From Cordylochernes scorpioides (lineage: Eukaryota > Arthropoda > Arachnida > Pseudoscorpiones > Chernetidae), in the NCBI GenBank assembly GCA_030710605.1, contig CP092884.1, forward strand, positions 23,851,483 through 23,915,482: a stretch of DNA of 64,000 nt, written 5' to 3'. Of this stretch, positions 64 to 57,271 are shown piece after piece; the first letter of the stretch is position 1, and every line of letters starts with the position of its first letter. Below the pieces are notes generated by a model, which ran no database searches, had not been told where the DNA came from, and was given only the letters and a program-made list of their open reading frames with translations. Made by a program: the position numbers and the translations under genes.

Positions 64-460
64 TGAAAATTCGAAACTATTTTAGACGCGTATGATTCTT
101 TTAAGAATAAATCAATTTTCTACTGCCCTTACTGCAATGATAATATAATGGAAGGGCCTGGCTCATTAGTTGGTGAACCCTCCCAGCGGTTTCGACAGTT
201 TATTCTACCATACCGCTGTAATATTGTATTTTTCAATTTTCATTTTATACTGATACTGATTCTATACTCTTGGAATGGGTATTTTAAGCTAACTATAAAC
301 ATAAGCTTTGAGGATAGTAGAAATACATACAAATATAAATATATAATATGCTTCGAGCATTGCTCTTCCGCAAATTGAAAGTAAATTATTTTAAAACAAA
401 ATATTAATATGGATCATTGAAAATAATCATACGTGTCAAAAATAGTTCAAAGTTTCCATA
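64..460 (-). repeat. HhF foldback element, subfamily 2 copy
   Basis: Dispersed repeat with degenerate terminal inverted repeats: TTCGAAACTATTTTAGACGC near 67 and its inverted relative near 425-460. The structured core at 151-217 reads on the minus strand. It holds the three hammerhead-like strands AGCGGU-A-UGGU, CUGUC-GAA-ACCGCU and ACCA-(A)CUAAUGA-GCCAG. The distal part carries the AGAGCAATGCTCGAAGCAT segment seen in other full copies. No coding capacity is apparent. The family assignment is firm; the ribozyme reading is inference. Confidence 0.75.
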
Positions 461-1118: not shown

Positions 1119-1533
1119 ATGAAAATTCGAAAATTTCATAGACGCGTATGATTCTTTTAAAAATTAAACAATTTCTACTGATCTTACTGCAATGGAAAAT
1201 TAATGGATTGATTAATTGATGTTTGAGGAAGAGCGATTGCTCGAAGCATATTATATATTGATAATTGCATGTAATTCTACTATCCTCAATGCTTATGTCC
1301 ATAGTTAATCTAAAATACCCATTCCAAGAGTCTAGCATCAGTATCACTATAAAAATAAGATCGGAAAAAGCAATATAACAGCAGTATGGTAGATTAAACT
1401 GGCGAAACCGCTGAGAGGGTTTACCACTATACAGCCAGGCCCTTCCATTGATTTTTCCATTGCAGTAAGGACAGTAGAAATTGTTTAAATTTTAAAAGAA
1501 TCATACGCGTCTATAATAGTTTCGAATTTTCAT
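1119..1533 (+). repeat. HhF foldback element, full-length subfamily 2
   Basis: The most complete copy, about 415 bp. The terminal inverted repeats of about 75 bp begin ATGAAAATTCGAAA and end TTTCGAATTTTCAT; both contain TAGACGCGTATGATTCTTTT. The core at 1380-1446 reads on the plus strand: AGCAGU-A-UGGU, CUGGC-GAA-ACCGCU, ACCA-CUAUACA-GCCAG. The outer pair of the putative stem II is C-G here and U-A in subfamily 1. The CUGAUGA box is mutated, so this copy should be inactive even if the family is a ribozyme. Confidence 0.8.
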
Positions 1534-3589: not shown

Positions 3590-3850
3590 GTCCTAAAAGC
3601 TTATGTACATAGTTTGCTTAAATACCGTTTCTAATATTCCACCTTTCAGTGTAGCATATATAAGCAAAATCGTCTAATACAGTAGTAGAGCTCTAAAGAA
3701 GCGTTCTGGTAAATTAAATTGGTGAAACTGCTTGGAGAGTTCACCACTGATGAGCCAAGCCCCTCCAATATTTTATCGCGGTAAGGACAGTAGAATTTTA
3801 TTTATATTTAAAAGAAACAATCGTGCTTTAATGCTTCCATTTCTTATATT
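3590..3850 (+). repeat. HhF element, subfamily 1, truncated
   Basis: Core at 3700-3767 on the plus strand: AGCGUU-C-UGGU, UUGGU-GAA-ACUGCU, ACCA-CUGAUGA-GCCAA. This copy keeps an exact CUGAUGA box. It is followed by the family segment GTAAGGACAGTAGAA and the TTAAAAGAAACAATCG end. The far 5' arm is missing. Confidence 0.7.
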
Positions 3851-3904
3851 GATGGCAGTTATCGCCTTATATTTAATTGATATATAATAAATATTATAAT
3901 AAAA

Positions 3905-4048
3905 AAATCAAAAGAAAGCATATCCTGACCATGAACACATGAGCTTATTAGATGACAAACCGCCATCTAGTGGAACAGATATCAACTAAACGTTGATTTA
4001 GCCTGTTCCCTGATATTTGATCAACCCATTTTCTTGATTTATTATTAT
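3905..4048 (+). repeat. Rep-E half-element
   Basis: Single arm of the foldback family that is complete at 56869-57220. Shared motifs are TCCTGACCATGAACACATGA, CCATCTAGTGGA and AACTAAACGTTGATTTAGCC. The arm stops at the centre of the palindrome (TTCTTGATTTATTA). Confidence 0.65.
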
Positions 4049-4075
4049 TTTTTTTGTATATCGTAATATTTATTC

Positions 4076-4180
4076 CGATAGATGGCGCAAGCCATCAGAA
4101 ACCTTTAATTGTACAATCAGGAGATGCCTTATTCTTAATTTGTCCACTTGATCCCAGTACAATTTCACTTTTGTACTATT
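4076..4180 (+). repeat. Rep-F fragment
   Basis: Contains AGATGGCGCAAGCCATCAG, ATTGTACAATCAGGAGATGC and the tail CAGTACAATTTCACTTTTG, all features of Rep-F copies at 29544, 31225 and 38520. Confidence 0.6.
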
Positions 4181-4735
4181 TTTTTCACATTAATATATGG
4201 ATTTATTTCATATATAAATATTTTTCTTGTTTTTTAGTTACCTCTTTGGCCCATTGTACAAGAAATTTTATCACATGTATTTTATGTATTATAGGATTAT
4301 TTAATTTAAAATTTAGATGTATCCCACAGTCTGTTGGTTTACTGAAAACAGTGGTTATAATAGAACCATCTACATTGTGAGTTAGTCCTACATCTAAGAA
4401 TGATAAAAAAAAAATCCTCCTCTTTTTATTTCAACTGTGAATTCTATTCCTCTTTCAATTTTATTAAACATGACTATGATTTCATATATAAATATTTCTC
4501 TTTAAATCTGTTCCAAGGTTAGAATAAGGAATATGGCAATTATAATTTTCCCAGTAGCGTTGCTAAATGAGGCTATGGCGTGCCAGAGGCAGGCAGCTTT
4601 TTTCTTTAATATTTAGTAACTTGGATTTTTAGCTAACTACCTATATAGAACTGAGTGTCTCGTTATTTTTTTGTAATTATAATATGAGCCTATTTCAGTT
4701 AGAATTTCTAACACCAGTTGTTAAATACACGTAAA
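4181..4735. other. Unassigned AT-rich sequence
   Basis: No recognisable coding or RNA gene. A 108-codon open frame (4054-4380) crosses the Rep-F end and looks like chance. Confidence 0.4.
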
Positions 4736-4738
4736 TAA

Positions 4739-5105
4739 CGAATGAAGACATTAAGATGCGAATGTTTCTTTTCACAAATAAATCAAACTTCTACTGTCCT
4801 TACTGCGATGAAATAAATATTGGGAGGGCTTGGCTCATTAGTGGTGAATCCTCCCAGCGGTTTCGCCAATTTAATCTACCAGACCGCTTCTTCAGAGCTA
4901 TAATACTGTATTGGATCATTATGCGATAATTATTAGTAGTAGTATTAGAGCTCTGAGAAGCAGTCTGGTAGATTAAATTGGCGAAACCGCTGGAGGATTC
5001 ATCAGTGATGAGCCAAGCCCTCTCAATATTTTCATCGCAGTAAGGACAGTAGAAGTTTGATTTATTTGAGAAAAGAGACATTCGCGTCTTAACGTCTTCA
5101 TTTGT
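4739..5105. repeat. HhF inverted dimer (subfamily 1)
   Basis: Two HhF arms face each other around a short AT-rich centre. The left core (4822-4888, minus strand) has AGCGGU-C-UGGU, UUGGC-GAA-ACCGCU, ACCA-CUAAUGA-GCCAA. The right core (4959-5024, plus strand) has AGCAGU-C-UGGU, UUGGC-GAA-ACCGCU, AUCA-GUGAUGA-GCCAA. Outer ends carry GAAGACATTAAGATGCGAAT and its inverse. A transcript would fold into a very long hairpin. Confidence 0.8.
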
Positions 5106-5129
5106 TTTATATAGATGACGCGTTATTGC

Positions 5130-5830
5130 ATTGTATTAAATACACATATGTAAAAATTTAAGGAAGTAGAAAGTCTGATGTCTCCAGTTGACTGTTTTTT
5201 TAAGGAGACAGAGTCAATTATTTTCACACTTGGTTAGCTTGCGTGCCTTCCAAAAAGTTCACTGTAAATCAAATATCTTTCATAGTTATTATCAGAATTC
5301 CGATAAAAATCCTAAAAGGTACAATTTACTTTAGTTTTCCCATATATATATATTATCAAATATAATATCTACACATTTTGCATAGGTTACAAGTTATAGA
5401 TTCAAGTATGTATTTATAAATATACTCTCTTACTTATATTCAACACTGATGAGTAAAGCCCCCTCACTATTTTTCATCGCAAATTCATTTGTAAAAACCA
5501 ACACATTCGTGATTCATAGTTCCATTTCTTACATATAGATAGTGCGTAAGCTATGAAAATGTATAGATATTATATTTGATAATATACACATATGGGGAAA
5601 ACTTAAGGAAGTTGTACCTATTAGCGTGTATATTGGAATATAGATAATAACTATGAAAAATATTTTATATACAGTGATTTCCTTTAAAGACACACAAGCT
5701 AACCAAGTGCGAATAAAATTGACTCTGTCTCCTTAAAAAAGCAATCAACCGGCGACATCAGACTTTCTACTTCCTAAAGTTTTTACATATGTGCATTCAA
5801 TACAATGCAATAAAGCGTCATCTATATAAA
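5130..5830. repeat. Inverted pair of Rep-B repeats
   Basis: Rep-B arms at 5130-5345 and 5590-5800 are inverted to each other. Shared motifs are CTTAAGGAAGT, GACATCAGACTTTCTACTTC (inverted in the left arm), AAGGAGACAGAGTCAATT and TTGGTTAGCTTG. With the flanking HhF arms (4940-5105 and 5825-5990) the whole block is a nested palindrome centred near 5460. Confidence 0.7.
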
Positions 5831-5990
5831 ACGAATGAAGACATTAAGACGCGAATATTTATTTTCACTAATAAATAAAACTTTTACTGTCCTTACTGCG
5901 ATGAAAAATATATTGAAAGGGCTTGGCTCATCACTGGTGAACCTTCCCAGCGGTTTTGCCAATTTAATCTACCAGACCGCTTGTTTTTAT
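5825..5990 (-). repeat. HhF arm, subfamily 1
   Basis: Core at 5915-5981 on the minus strand: AGCGGU-C-UGGU, UUGGC-AAA-ACCGCU, ACCA-GUGAUGA-GCCAA. Two core residues are changed. It forms the outer right arm of the nested palindrome that begins at about 4940. Confidence 0.72.
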
Positions 5991-6320
5991 AATTAATTTA
6001 TGTCTAAATGCCATTGTATCCTTTGTTTGAGGAAGATCAAACACACATTGCTTGACGCAAATATTTATATGTAATTATTCCTTCAAGAAACATCATGTTC
6101 ATTGTTTGATAAAATACTATTAGTAAGATTCAGTCATTCATTATATAAGGTTGTCCTAAAAAGTTCGTAAGCACCATTTCCTAAAACGTTTTTCTTATTA
6201 CTTGGCGAATAATATTATTACGGCTAATACATAATAATACATAATACAATTACTTTACACATAATACAAAGACATTATACATAACGGTTAATAATAATAT
6301 GACGAATAATATTGGTATTT

Positions 6321-7311: not shown

Positions 7312-7565
7312 GATTTTTCAGAATGCCTGAATGACCAATTTTTTGGTCGTTGAGGTAAAGCTTGCACCACGCTGACGAGGGCCAACAGCCCGTAACGCGT
7401 AAGTGGTTAGCTTTTCTTTATTAATCAAGAATGGGTTTTCGGCCAATTCTGGAATAAATAAAAATCAACGAATAGTTGATATTTATTTTGATATTGGGCT
7501 TAAGCCTTCAGCAACTTTCAGTTGCCCGATAAGGAGATGCCCTTTTTTTCTTAATTTATATTATG
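7310..7565. repeat. Rep-F element with gypsy leader segment
   Basis: Shares CAACTTTCAGTTGC, GATAAGGAGATGCC and GGCCAACAG segments with 31225-31565. The segment around 7310-7380 lies directly upstream of the gypsy RT frame and is also present at about 31380-31500. Rep-F has therefore either picked up a gypsy pol piece or supplied the site of insertion. Confidence 0.6.
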
Positions 7566-11679: not shown

Positions 11680-12056
11680 TGGGGATAAACAATCAGATTT
11701 TTTTATACTGTCCTTGCTGCGATGAAAAAATATTTGGAGTGCTTGGCTTATTAGTGGTGAACCCTCCCTGTGGTGTAGCCAAACCTAATCTACCAGACCG
11801 CTTCTTCAGAGCTCTAATACTGTATTGGACGATTCTGCTAATATATACTACACTGAGGGGTGAAATCTCAGAAATGGTATTCAAGTAAACTATGGACATA
11901 AGCTTATAGGACAGTATAATTATATTCAAATAGTTGCATCGAGCAATGCTCTTCCGCAAACAATAAGGACTAGGCCAGTTAGGCATAAATTAATATAAAG
12001 CAATAACGTGCCATCTATATTTAAGAAATGGAAGCATCAAAGCACACGCATATTTT
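11680..12056 (-). repeat. HhF element, subfamily 1
   Basis: Core at 11735-11802 on the minus strand: AGCGGU-C-UGGU is intact and ACCA-CUAAUAA-GCCAA is mutated. The GAA strand is altered to UUGGC-UAC-ACCACA. The distal part has AAGCTTATAGGACAGT and CAATGCTCTTCCGC and ends with the inverted terminus near 12056. Confidence 0.7.
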
Positions 12057-12187: not shown

Positions 12188-12482
12188 CCATCTGTTTCAA
12201 GAAATTTGAACTATTTTTGAGAAGTATGATTCTTTTTTTTTTTAATAAATCAATTTTCTACTGCCCTTACTGTAATGATAAAATAATGGGAGGGCTTGAC
12301 TCATCAGTGATGAACCCTCCCAGCCGTTTCGCCAGTTTACTAAAATGCTAGATTAAACTGGAGAAACCAGTGGGAGGGTTCACCACTGATAAGCCAGGCC
12401 CTCCAATTATATTAACATTACAGTAAGGGCAGTATAATTTTTTTTTTCTAAAGAATCATACACTTCAAAAATATTGAAGTAC
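12188..12482. repeat. HhF inverted dimer, subfamily 2-like
   Basis: Two cores face each other at about 12288-12340 (minus) and 12345-12412 (plus). The left keeps CTGGC-GAA-ACGGCT and AUCA-CUGAUGA-GUCAA but lacks the NUH strand. The right has CTGGA-GAA-ACCAGT and ACCA-CUGAUAA-GCCAG. Outer arms are GAAGTATGATTCTTT and the inverse. Confidence 0.72.
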
Positions 12483-15574: not shown

Positions 15575-15787
15575 CGTGCCATCTATATATGACAAGTGAA
15601 AACATTAAGAGGCGATTGTTTCTTTTCACAAATAAATCAAACTTCAGTATATTCAAAATACAGTATTAGAGCTCTAAAAAAGCGGTCTGATAGATTAAAT
15701 TGGCGAAACTGATGGGAGGGTTCACCACTGATGAGCTAAGCCCTCCCAATTCTATTTCATCGCAGTAAGGACAGTAGAAGGTTTATT
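15575..15787 (+). repeat. HhF element, subfamily 1
   Basis: Core at 15681-15747 on the plus strand: AGCGGU-C-UGAU, UUGGC-GAA-ACUGAU, ACCA-CUGAUGA-GCUAA. The CUGAUGA and GAA boxes are exact, while pairing strands have drifted. The element is split by an insertion at 15788 and resumes at 16115. Confidence 0.72.
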
Positions 15788-17699: not shown

Positions 17700-17954
17700 C
17701 CTGCCGGCAGCCAACGGGCAGGACGCCTGAGTGTTCTAGAGGGCGCTGCTCGTGAGCTAAGTAGAATAATTTGAATATATAGTTTTAATAAATGATTTAT
17801 ATATATTTTAAAATAGCCTATGTTCCTCCCCGTTATTTTTTACCTATGTATTTAAATTTTGGTTTGATTTAGTGAACTACTGCGAATTTGTATACCGGAC
17901 ATACAAACCAACAAACAGACAAACATACAAACATTCATTTTTATATAGAGAGAT
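17700..17954 (+). repeat. Transposon 3' tail next to tandem array
   Basis: GAGGGCGCTGCTCGTGAGC resembles GAGGCGCTGCTTGCGAGCG at 34185 and the inverse at 52150, so it belongs to the Helitron-associated repeats. It ends ACATACAAACATTCATTTTT and TATATAGAG, a common end of non-autonomous elements. The tandem array begins immediately after. Confidence 0.5.
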
Positions 17955-18611
17955 GTCCTCTAGCGTGAGTGCCCTCTCATGGAGGTTCTACTGTATTGGT
18001 GAAGAAAACTGTCCTTTATAGAGAGGTGTCCTCTAGCGTGAGTGTCCTCTCATGGAGGTTCTACTGTATTGGTGAAGAAAACTGTCCTTTATAGAGAGGT
18101 GTCCTCTAGCATGAGTGTCCTCTCATGGAGGTTCTACTGTATTGGTGAAGAAAACTGTCCTTTATAGAGAGGTGTCCTCTAGCGTGAGTGTCCTCTCATG
18201 TAGGTTCTACTGTATTGGTGAAGAAAACTGTCCTTTATAGAGAGGTGTCCTCTAGCGTGAGTGTCCTCTCATGGAGGTTCTACTGTATTGGTGAAGAAAA
18301 CTGTCCTTTATAGAGAGGTGTCCTCTAGCGTGAGTGTCCTCTCATGGAGGTTCTACTGTATTGGTGAATAAAACTGTCCTTTATAGAGAGGTGTCCTCTA
18401 GCGTGAGTGTCCTCTCATGGAGGTTCTACTGTATTGGTGAAGAAAACTGTCCTTTATAGAGAGATGTACTCTAGCGTGAGTGTCCTCTCATGGAGGTTCT
18501 ACTGTATTGGTGAAGAAAACTGTCCTTTATAGAGAGATGTCCTCTAGCGTGAGTGTCCTCTCATGGAGGTTCTACTGTATTGGTGAAGAAAACTGTCCTT
18601 TATAGAGAGGT
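17955..18611 (+). repeat. Tandem array, 9 units of 73 bp
   Basis: Units start at 17955, 18028, 18101, 18174, 18247, 18320, 18393, 18466 and 18539, an exact 73-bp period with one to three substitutions per unit. Each unit contains GTCCTCTAGCGTGAGTGTCC and GGAGGTTCTACTGTATTGG. The last unit runs directly into GTGTTCGATTCCCATCCC, a B-box-like sequence. The units are too uniform to be old. Confidence 0.95.
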
Positions 18612-18864
18612 GTTCGATTCCCATCCCTTGACACTTTTTTTTATTTTATCCATTCTGACCAAAATCTATCCGTGAACTTCAGACAGTGAACTTCACACAG
18701 ACAGAATAAGGCAATTATATAAGTAGATTTTGGGAGGTCGCGAGAAATGTGTCCATGTTTACAATCCTTAGCTATGTCATGGTTAGATAGTTAGGTTTGT
18801 TTAGGTTAATCTGTAAATATGTTCAGAAATACGCAAAAAGTTTAAATAAAATTATAAATTGCGA

Positions 18865-26244: not shown

Positions 26245-27760
26245 TCATTAAGGACTCGGAGCAGCAGCTTGACACACCCAAGATAGAAAACATTGAAACT
26301 GCTGTGATAGAGATGCATGGAAACATCTGAGGCTCTTCATTGTATACGACAACAACAACAGTACAGTTCATACACCCAAGATGGAGGACGTTGCGACTAT
26401 TATGATAGAGATGCGTGGAGACATCTGAGGCTCTACATTGGACACGACATCAGCAACAATACAGTATACATACACCCAAGATAGAGGACATTGCAATTGC
26501 TGTGATAGAGATGCATGGGGACAACTGAGGCTTTTCATTGGGCACGACAACAGCAACAATACAGTATACATACATCCAAGATAGAGGACATTGCGACTGC
26601 TGTGATAGAGATGCATGGAGACATCTGAGGCTCTTCATTGTATACGACAACAACAACAGTACAGTTCATACACCCAAGATGGAGGACGTTGCGACTACTA
26701 TGATAGAGATGCGTGGAGACATCTGAGGCTCTACATTGGACACGACAGCAGCAACAATACAGTATACATACACCCAAGATAGAGGACATTGCATTTGCTG
26801 TGATAGAGATGCATGGGGACATCTGAGGCTTTTCATTGGGCACGACAACAGCAACAATACAGTATACATACACCCAAGATAGAGGACATTGCGACTGCTG
26901 TGATAGAGATGCATTGAGACATCTGAGGCTCTTCATTGTATACGACAACAACAACAGTACAGTTCATACACCCAAGATGGAGGACGTTGCGACTACTATG
27001 ATAGAGATGCGTGGAGACATCTGAGGCTCTACATTGGACACGACAGCAGCAACAATACAGTATACATACACCCAAGATAGAGGACATTGCAATTGCTGTG
27101 ATAGAGATGCATGGGGACATCTGAGGCTCTTCATTGTATACGACAACAACAACAGTACAGTTCATACACCCAAGATGGAGGACGTTGCGACTACTATGAT
27201 AGAGATGCGTGGAGACATCTGAGGCTCTACATTGGACACGACAGCAGCAACAATACAGTATACATACACCCAAGATAGAGGACATTGCAATTGCTGTGAT
27301 AGAGATGCATGGGGACAACTGAGGCTTTTCATTGGGCACGACAACAGCAACAATACAGTATACATACACCCAAGATAGAGGACATTGCGACTGCTGTGAT
27401 AGAGATGCATGGAGACATCTGAGGCTCTTCATTGTATACGACAACAACAACAGTACGGTTCATACACCCAAGATGGAGGACGTTGCGACTACTATGATAG
27501 AGATGCGTGGAGACATCTGAGGCTCTACATTGGACACGACAGCCGCAACAATACAGTATACATACACCCAAGATAGAGGACATTGCAATTGCTGTGATAG
27601 AGATGCATGGGGACATCTGAGGCTTTTCATTGGGCACGACAACAGCAACAATACAGTATACATACACCCAATATAGAGGACATTGCGACTGCTGTGATAG
27701 AGATGCCTGGAGACATCTGAGGCTCTTCATTGGACACGACAACAACAACCAGCTTGGGTA
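26245..27760 (+). repeat. Minisatellite derived from a LINE C-terminus, higher-order structure
   Basis: About 15 monomers of 96-101 bp. Three monomer types alternate to give a higher-order unit of 298 bp: the diagnostic GGCTTTTCATTGGGCACGAC recurs at about 26530, 26828, 27324 and 27622 (steps of 298, 496 and 298). The first monomer translates on the plus strand as TPKIENIETAVIEMHGN then stop. This matches the last codons of the LINE tail at 49320-49780, where TPKIENIATAVIEMHGEI follows a LINE zinc finger. Long minus-strand open frames in the array are a by-product of the repeats. Confidence 0.92.
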
Positions 27761-28423: not shown

Positions 28424-28690
28424 AATTTCGAAAATATTATAGACGCGTATGATTCCTTTAAAAAATAAGCAATTTCGGCCCTTAGTGCAATGGAAAAATT
28501 GATGAGAGGGCCTGACTCATCAGTGGGGCACACTCCCAGCGGTTTCGCCCGTTTGATCTGCCATACCGCTGTTATATTGCATTTTTAGATTATCCTTTTA
28601 TAGTGATACCGATACTAGACTCTTGGAATGGTTATTTTAGATGAACCAAACGATTAATAAGCGTCTATAATAGTTTCGAAATTTCATAAT
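28424..28690 (-). repeat. HhF element, subfamily 2, internally shortened
   Basis: Core at 28504-28570 on the minus strand: AGCGGU-A-UGGC, CGGGC-GAA-ACCGCU, CCCA-CUGAUGA-GUCAG. Both terminal inverted repeats (AGACGCGTATGATTC and the inverse AGCGTCTATAATAG) are present. It is followed by the common border motif AGATGGCGCGCTAATG. Confidence 0.72.
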
Positions 28691-56810: not shown

Positions 56811-56850
56811 ATCGTTTATCGGCCTTTTGGCTAAGATCATGTATTATATC
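56811..56850 (+). pseudogene. U2 snRNA 5' fragment, second copy
   Basis: ATCGTTTATCGGCCTTTTGG then CTAAGATCATGTATTATATC: the same segment of U2 nucleotides 1 to about 40 as at 53440, with two further substitutions. Confidence 0.85.
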
Positions 56851-56868
56851 TCTATATATATATATATT

Positions 56869-57220
56869 AAAAAGGCATCTCCTGACCACGAGCACATATG
56901 ATTTTTAGATGGCAGAGCGCCATCTAATGGAGCAAAAACAAACTAAACGTTTATTTAGCTTGCTCCGTGATATTTGGCCAACCCAATTTCTTGATTTATC
57001 AAGAAATGCCATCCACGAACGCGTTTCGCGCTGTTGGCGCTCGTCAGCGTGGAGAAGGCTGTAACCGTTCGTGGATGGCATTTCTTGATAAATCAAGAAA
57101 TTGGGTTGGCCAAATATCACGGAGCAAGCTAAATAAACGTTTAGTTTATTTTTGCTCCACTAGATGGCGCTCTGCCATCTAAAAAGCACATGTGCTCGTG
57201 GTCAGGAGATGCCTTTTTTA
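56869..57220. repeat. Rep-E full foldback element
   Basis: Arms 56869-57021 and 57066-57220 are almost perfect inverted copies of about 154 bp around a 44-bp loop that contains GCGTTTCGCGCTGTTGGCGC. The ends are AAAAAGGCATCTCC and its inverse. Half-elements of the same family lie at 3905 and 26001. It contains no gene, and 70-codon open frames inside mirror each other. It has the structure of a MITE or foldback transposon. Confidence 0.85.
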
Positions 57221-57271
57221 TTTTTAATATCAACACCTGACCCACTTATCTTTTATTTTTTTCTATTGTTT

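Follow-up and report, generated by a model that had tools for sequence, protein, structure and literature searches.

Non-circularly permuted hammerhead ribozymes were described by Eckert, Friedrich, Weinberg and Weinberg (Nucleic Acids Res. 2023; PMC10085705), whose naming of the core strands as S (NUH), G (GAAA), and C (CUGAnGA) we follow; in type SGC the strands occur in the order S, G, C. In that report, 583 type-SGC sequences were predicted, four stems (I, II, III, and one tying I to II) were required, as shown for one such sequence, and cleavage during transcription in vitro proceeded at 0.007–0.19 per minute. The sequences came from metatranscriptome and metagenome data, and the same report places none in the genomes of known organisms. 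Two kinds of animal mobile element provide the other points of comparison. Penelope-like elements have head-to-head inverted pseudo-long terminal repeats (pseudo-LTRs) of ∼180–220 bp, a TATA box, an optional tail of 30–40 bp, and hammerheads (PMC3846280, PMC11167929), the latter being type I variants (PMC7229834), whereas animal retrozymes are tandem 150–450-bp low-GC units with type I hammerheads (PMC7229834). Here we describe HhF, a repeat family of the pseudoscorpion Cordylochernes scorpioides, starting from a 64,000-nt stretch of its genome (the window; GCA_030710605.1, contig CP092884.1, positions 23,851,483 to 23,915,482). HhF is probably the noncoding unit of a very abundant animal retroelement, non-autonomous and Penelope-like or retrozyme-like in kind, that appears to encode a type-SGC hammerhead predicted to cut its transcripts.

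We collected HhF copies in the window by Blast and by a profile search with a profile built from the window copies, which gave 11 copies that span the motif well plus several fragments. The majority of the 11 alignable copies yields the consensus AGCGGTCTGGTAGATTAAATTGGCGAAACCGCTGGGAGGGTTCACCACTGATGAGCCAAGCCCTCCCA (another consensus left two bases undecided), laid out as AGCGGU-C-UGGU-AGAUUAAA-UUGGC-GAA-ACCGCU-GGGAGGG-UUC-ACCA-CUGAUGA-GCCAA-G-CCCUCCC. The blocks run 5′ to 3′ as NUH, GAAA, CUGAnGA, the order of type SGC and not the circular order NUH, CUGAnGA, GAAA of the classical types I, II, and III. Complementarity is exact in stem III (AGCGGU/ACCGCU, 6 bp), stem I (UGGU/ACCA, 4 bp), stem II (UUGGC/GCCAA, 5 bp), and the fourth stem (GGGAGGG/CCCUCCC, 7 bp), and both G10.1–C11.1 and A15.1–U16.1 are present. 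The preliminary description of this DNA had claimed the three core strands in the order NUH, GAA, CUGAUGA, together with these four stems and two pairs, and the 11-copy consensus bears out every one of them. It had also thought the strand order unlike that of known hammerheads; instead, the order is the type-SGC permutation set out in PMC10085705. Its proposal that the core could form from two adjacent hairpins, with loops able to pair as stems I and II and with the fourth stem, is consistent with the sequence, and the tandem copies it had invoked as another route to the core do exist elsewhere in the genome, as arrays of 372-nt units.

The head-to-head HhF element at window positions 4734–5135, which contains the inverted repeat pair of 4739–5105, illustrates the arrangement. 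It has two inverted arms of ∼185 nt and a tail of ∼30 nt at its right end, and it is self-complementary over 4737–5106 at 87.5%. Motif copy 1 (4821–4888, minus strand) has its S block at 4888–4878, its G block at 4869–4856, and its C block at 4845–4830, and its fourth stem pairs 4855–4849 with 4828–4822. The predicted cut follows H17, which is base 4882, exactly where the preliminary description had put it; this copy has one core change, CUAAUGA. Motif copy 2 (4959–5025, plus strand) has a predicted cut after 4965 and the core change GUGAUGA. The further claim that no single copy keeps every core base does not hold: all tested core bases are kept in three of the 11 window copies, at 3700–3767 (plus, with G-U at 10.1–11.1), 15681–15748 (plus), and 28503–28570 (minus, subfamily B, stem III intact), and perfect copies are common outside the window. 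Stem mismatches occur in each of these three, and the window copies are decayed.

The HhF hammerhead motif is not a chance match. We scanned 852 Mb of Markov-generated sequence that matched the window in dinucleotide composition, demanding an exact core and stems within 90 nt of the C block. Whichever of the six block orders was allowed, an exact core with Watson–Crick pairing of at least 4 bp in stem I, 5 bp in stem II, and 6 bp in stem III never turned up. Relaxing the stems to 4, 4, and 5 bp produced one chance case (order GSC), and 3, 3, and 4 bp produced 11 of type SGC. When the HhF motif was shuffled so as to preserve its two hairpins, the observed total of 15 bp was reached in any order by 1 of 7.06 million shuffles. 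A loose scan of the window that allowed one core mismatch gave many matches for every block order, and shuffled windows gave the like (11.6 to 28.6 per window and order). Rfam 15 reported no hammerhead in the window at gathering cut-offs, none in 3600–6000 at E values up to 1, and none in locus L017, one of the tandem arrays. Since Rfam 15 does not see the HhF motif, similar elements may sit unnoticed in other animals. Motif scans of collections of viral contigs and prokaryotic genome contigs returned zero matches, although near relatives of the window possibly lie outside these collections.

We then turned to the assembly that holds the window (24 contigs, 2.619 Gb in total). Allowing up to one mismatch, the 12-mer CTGATGAGCCAA had 86,666 + 86,298 genome matches, against 1,350 + 1,325 for the same 12-mer read backwards. 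An exact 40-nt stretch running from stem II through the G block, the 5′ side of the fourth stem, and the C block to stem II occurred 8,572 + 8,378 = 16,950 times, and its reversal 0 + 0 times. A profile search of 20 random 10-kb regions found 48 matches in 15 of them, 39 spanning the motif. Scaling from these regions puts the family at roughly half a million copies genome-wide, a figure for which the regions were placed at round coordinates, one of them (L046) contributes 13 of the 48 matches, and copies within arrays are not independent.

To be counted further, a copy had to have no more than three gaps and an alignment score of at least 50, which reduced the random set from 39 to 36, the window set from 13 to 11, and the set from loci on contig 1 (C1) from 91 to 68. 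The 36 random copies come from 13 regions, with 32 distinct among them, and the full set holds 115 copies in 90 distinct rows. Because the C1 loci had been picked via CTGATGAGCCAA and are thereby biased toward an intact C block, only the random set was used to assess core conservation. In that set, the 11 fixed core bases were intact in 22 of 36 copies, where 12.6 would be expected if mismatches fell at random (P about 1e-5). Nine of the 36 combined an intact core with a stem I of 4 bp or more, a stem II of 5 bp, and a stem III of 6 bp, and four were identical to the young consensus. Examples of intact natural copies are L017:791-858 and, for the subfamilies, L042:8616-8682 and L044:6189-6256. 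Among 42 copies in loci L009–L028, a biased set with six copies from one array, 16 equal the window consensus but for one base, an A to G change after stem I that lengthens this stem to 5 bp (UGGUG/CACCA).

One alternative is that the two hairpins are kept for some other RNA role, such as recognition by a reverse transcriptase (RT), packaging, or RNA stability, and that the likeness to a hammerhead is coincidental or vestigial. In the random sample, GAA is changed in 3.7% of cells and CUGAnGA in 5.6%, compared with 12–17% in the stems and 10.7% in the linker, and yet neither the unpaired core nor the loop–loop stems I and II would be needed for two hairpins. Likewise, H17 over the 115 copies is C in 83, A in 24, T in 4, G in 1, and a gap in 3, so that G is avoided at this position. 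The compensatory changes in stem II and stem I pairs described below, and the Markov and shuffle tests above, by which chance does not reach the exact combination, also argue against such a role. It is favored by the fold, since the two hairpins are the predicted minimum-energy structure, by the good preservation of flanking blocks such as GCAGTAAGGACAGTAGAA, and by three points that we take up again below: the conserved spacers, the near-invariance of N7, and the fact that cleavage of HhF RNA is a prediction. On balance, we regard it as decidedly unlikely. Two further readings of the conserved block were set aside. A protein-coding one (an antisense frame, FYCPYC...) is broken by spacer indels between window copies, and an H/ACA-like two-hairpin RNA would lack its hinge between the hairpins, although no search aimed at such RNAs was made.

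Covariation offered a second line of evidence. Window subfamilies A and B have diverged at 22 of 80 columns in the flanks but at 3 of 67 in the motif (Fisher p 1.5e-4), and the three motif differences consist of a C to A change at H17 and a compensated change of a U-A pair to C-G in stem II. A change of C to A at H17 is allowed in hammerheads. When all 2,080 column pairs were ranked over the 90 distinct rows, the outer stem II pair came first and a pair of the fourth stem (stem IV) fourth, ranks that also hold in the 32 distinct random rows; the stem I pair 1.2–2.2 (G-C to A-U) ranked 69th. The proposed pairs as a group exceeded other column pairs (Mann–Whitney p 2.9e-4 for all copies and 0.02 for the random set). 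Over all 115 copies 83.8% of stem cells can pair, compared with 33–51% in slid versions of the pairing. Cells in which both partners had changed numbered 62 where shuffles gave 28.4; the 36 random copies had 27, and their shuffles 11.5. In both cases, none of 1,000 shuffles was as high. The count of pair types was also above shuffles in the whole set (20 of 1,000 as high). On a tree built from the flanks (102 copies, with a stricter score of 70 and flanks required), paired states switched twice in stem II, four times in stem IV, and once in stem I, and a compensated fourth-stem variant, GAGAGGG/CCCUCUC, was seen among the copies. A hand-made alignment of 46 gap-free distinct rows (all 47 except a window row) and nine chosen one-base-gap rows with A-U states in stems I or IV gave 27 double-change cells against 11.8 (0 of 500 shuffles), a count inflated because rows were picked; our conclusions rest on the unpicked sets, whose counts agree in direction.

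The wider anatomy of HhF points to a retroelement. HhF is found as single arms, in head-to-head pairs (4737–5106, for example), and as tandem arrays of 372-nt units, and arrays of both orientations meet head to head. Adjacent units in L017 are identical at 371 and 372 of 372 positions, and the GC content of the unit is 37.6%. Neighboring matches less than 600 nt apart were head-to-head, tandem, and tail-to-tail in 12, 5, and 1 cases in the random regions, in 30, 17, and 6 cases in the C1 loci, and in 3, 1, and 0 cases in the window. A TATA-like box lies 5′ of the motif in five of six aligned window copies; by the upstream alignment, it is found in subfamily A at 3657–3663 (plus), 36 nt upstream of the motif at 3700, and in subfamily B as TATAAAA at 1348–1354 (plus), 25 nt upstream of the motif at 1380. 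The optional 3′ extension, or tail, of the element at 4734–5135 occupies 5107–5135 (plus; boundaries approximate), with AGATGACGCG at 5113, and is found at the right end only. The three other head-to-head window elements inspected each carry a similar, AGATGGCGCG-like tail at one end. A tail at exactly one end, true of these four elements, was considered as a rule and rejected: in 45 head-to-head pairs, the ∼30-nt tail with AGATGGCGCG was at one end in 20, at both in 4, and at neither in 17, with 4 at locus edges, and the 41 evaluable pairs do not depart from independence (308 of 20,000 random 90-nt windows match as background). An imperfect 13-nt direct repeat, TTAAATACACGTA at 4721–4733 and TTAAATACACATA at 5136–5148 (both plus; one mismatch), is a candidate target-site duplication of the element at 4734–5135. 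It is weak evidence, because 100 of 2,000 random places score as high, and nothing convincing was found at the other three of the four elements tried.

Several copies are palindromic, with arms of about 90–185 nt, and no retroelement open reading frame (ORF) was seen with the copies examined. Both facts would suit a foldback or MITE-type (miniature inverted-repeat) DNA transposon, whose arms would serve as terminal inverted repeats and whose movement would owe nothing to the ribozyme. We consider this unlikely, since the direct 372-nt tandem arrays of both orientations meeting head to head, the variable arm length, the optional tails, and the TATA-like box fit Penelope and retrozyme structures and not fixed terminal inverted repeats. 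The arrays themselves can be long, as at C1:7156396-7161964, where 10 exact minus matches are followed by 4 exact plus matches, and hammerhead-bearing satellites are known in animals (PMC7229834). HhF might, then, be a satellite-like noncoding repeat with a permuted hammerhead, spread at the DNA level without RNA intermediates. However, the family is dispersed, as the random regions show, with head-to-head neighbors outnumbering tandem ones there, and the core and stem pairing are maintained in copied lineages, which DNA amplification alone would not need. We judge a satellite origin very unlikely and continue with HhF as a probable retroelement.

We searched for an autonomous partner in loci L009–L016 and L069. 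L009–L016 hold no frame of at least 150 aa. HhF copy pairs 2.5–3 kb apart (L009–L014) were considered as complete elements and rejected: over nine locus pairs, the shared sequence was HhF or other repeats, with no common interior ORF. L069, with RT and GIY-YIG frames, was rejected as well: all that it holds of HhF is a 3′ fragment and its tail, which lie ∼1.3 kb 5′ of the RT frame, and other repeats fill the stretch between. GIY-YIG frames are numerous in the genome, with at least 146 matches among the 150 scored of 17,015 candidates. Such matches, e.g., C1:8987892-8988134 (minus) and C14:2435506-2435631 (minus), have open frames of up to 828 aa, and some form head-to-head pairs; these loci are candidate autonomous Penelope-like elements. 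In the window, a short frame at 4239–4424 (minus), FLSFLDVG...DGSIITTVFSKPTD, presumably resembles the C-terminal part of Penelope-like RTs; Pfam gave no support for this frame. A short open frame through the AUG inside CUGAUGA (MSQALP...), putatively coding, is common to three copies, two in L012 (from about 556 and from about 3451) and one in L016 (from about 347). The Anolis Penelope ORF, which begins at stem II, is comparable to these frames (PMC3846280, PMC11167929).

Several observations weigh against HhF being a working ribozyme of a mobile element. In the random sample, UU and G, which are unpaired spacers, change as rarely as the core does (5 of 108 cells, 4.6%), and some core bases are less well kept, with C3 and U16.1 changed in 13.9% and G10.1 in 19.4% of copies. 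N7, which is free in hammerheads, is nearly invariant (T in 113 of 115 copies). The window copies show no excess of intact cores (3 of 11, with 2.5 expected), and their C block is changed in 11 of 77 cells (14%), like the flanks (115 of 915, 12.6%), with the G block at 3 of 33. Pairs with at least one double change are not above shuffles, at 12 in the whole set (reached by 380 of 1,000) and 7 in the random set (216 of 1,000), nor is the pair-type count in the random set (957 of 1,000 as high). The preliminary description had proposed covariation as a check. Stems II, IV, and I are supported by it in the larger copy sets, but stem III shows little compensation, and in the 11 window copies alone, no measure rises above shuffles (score reached by 117 of 500). 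The linker between stems I and II is 7–8 nt, compared with typically 3 in type SGC, a length that PMC10085705 does not state as required. Tail placement is about what independent presence would give; the circular fold of the 372-nt unit is no better than that of shuffles (z −0.8 against 200 shuffles), which does not help a circular-RNA step; and the loci examined yielded no autonomous element with an HhF unit. Finally, catalysis by HhF RNA is inferred from sequence and from the analogy with type SGC.

Taking the motif, its four stems, the compensatory changes, core conservation, unit and array structure, and abundance as established by the sequence, we propose the following mechanism. In HhF RNA, hairpin 1 (closed by stem III) and hairpin 2 (closed by the fourth stem) would lie side by side, and their loops would pair to form stems I (4–5 bp) and II (5 bp), which would assemble a normal hammerhead core. 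Cleavage would follow H17 (C or A), as in published type-SGC work. In the transcript of a tandem array, one cut per unit would release unit-length RNAs of 372 nt, possibly circular, and mobilization would probably take place in trans by Penelope-type enzymes, the element resembling a Penelope-like pseudo-LTR in its head-to-head arms, optional tail, and TATA box. In its fullest form, this proposal describes an animal retroelement of several hundred thousand copies, in which selection has maintained a type-SGC hammerhead through several subfamilies and the ribozyme cuts tandem transcripts to 372-nt RNAs that reenter the genome via Penelope-type machinery. We lean toward this fuller account, though only slightly.

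The remaining motif copies of the window are at 149–217 (minus, subfamily B, core change CUAAUGA), 1380–1447 (plus, subfamily B), 5914–5981 (minus), and 11734–11802 (minus), the last three with changed cores. Partial motifs lie at 12287–12345 (minus), where the S block is lost at the center of a palindrome, and at 12340–12406 (plus), with the S block altered. An inverted duplication of 438 nt (86%), at 4958–5390 and 5546–5982, comprises one element arm and other repeat sequence, and a mir-458 match at 4870–4977, below cut-off, was dismissed as a by-product of the palindrome. Outside the window, four CTGATGAGCCAA matches at G000:C1:3060837-3061214 have a spacing of 122 nt, which differs from the 372-nt period. 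The window also has a canonical type I hammerhead (CUGACGA-GCGC-loop-GCGC-GAAAC) at 56998–57063 (minus), at the tip of a palindrome spanning 56861–57226; Rfam Hammerhead_HH9 scores it at 23.6 bits, below cut-off. With this hammerhead, both permutations are present in repeats of the same genome. A second, degenerate type I hammerhead, with GUAA for GAAA, is found at 7360–7410 (plus). Other features are tandem repeats at 26260–27745 and 17798–18755, with periods of 98–100 nt and 73 nt, a partial match to U2 small nuclear RNA at 56811–56942 (plus; 31.7 bits, below cut-off), and ORFs that we take to be mariner-, Tc1-, Gypsy-, and Tigger-like.

We compared HhF with the known systems by design and description. 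Like Penelope-like elements (PMC3846280, PMC11167929), HhF has head-to-head units, a TATA box, and an optional tail of ∼30 nt; unlike them, its hammerhead is type SGC instead of a type I variant, and no RT or GIY-YIG ORF lies beside the units in the examined loci. Like metazoan retrozymes (PMC7229834), it has low-GC tandem units of a few hundred nucleotides (372) with one hammerhead each; unlike them, the hammerhead is not type I, the arrays run head to head, and the unit folds no better than shuffles. HhF is, therefore, classed as neither, because a defining feature of each fails. The agreement with type SGC (the HRIMA-1 motif and variants, PMC10085705) includes the S-G-C order, all core bases, and pseudoknotted stems I, II, and III, as well as a fourth stem linking stems I and II at their other sides. 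The spacing between stem III and this fourth stem is 0 nt, within the published range of 0–44 nt, and the 5-bp stem I of the young subfamily agrees with the type-SGC design. We found no later paper on type SGC in animals in the literature covered, which leaves out most subscription papers and bioRxiv preprints. The strand order of HhF was already named; what is new, by the literature searched, is its setting in an abundant mobile element of an animal. If our reading is correct, HhF would carry, within that literature, the first type-SGC ribozyme placed in a cellular genome and the first placed in mobile DNA. Unlike the published type-SGC sequences (PMC10085705), HhF is an abundant animal genomic repeat, and it would give the type-SGC hammerhead a host, a mobile-element context, and many natural variants with compensatory changes, as well as a tractable system for testing how non-circular permutations come about and function.
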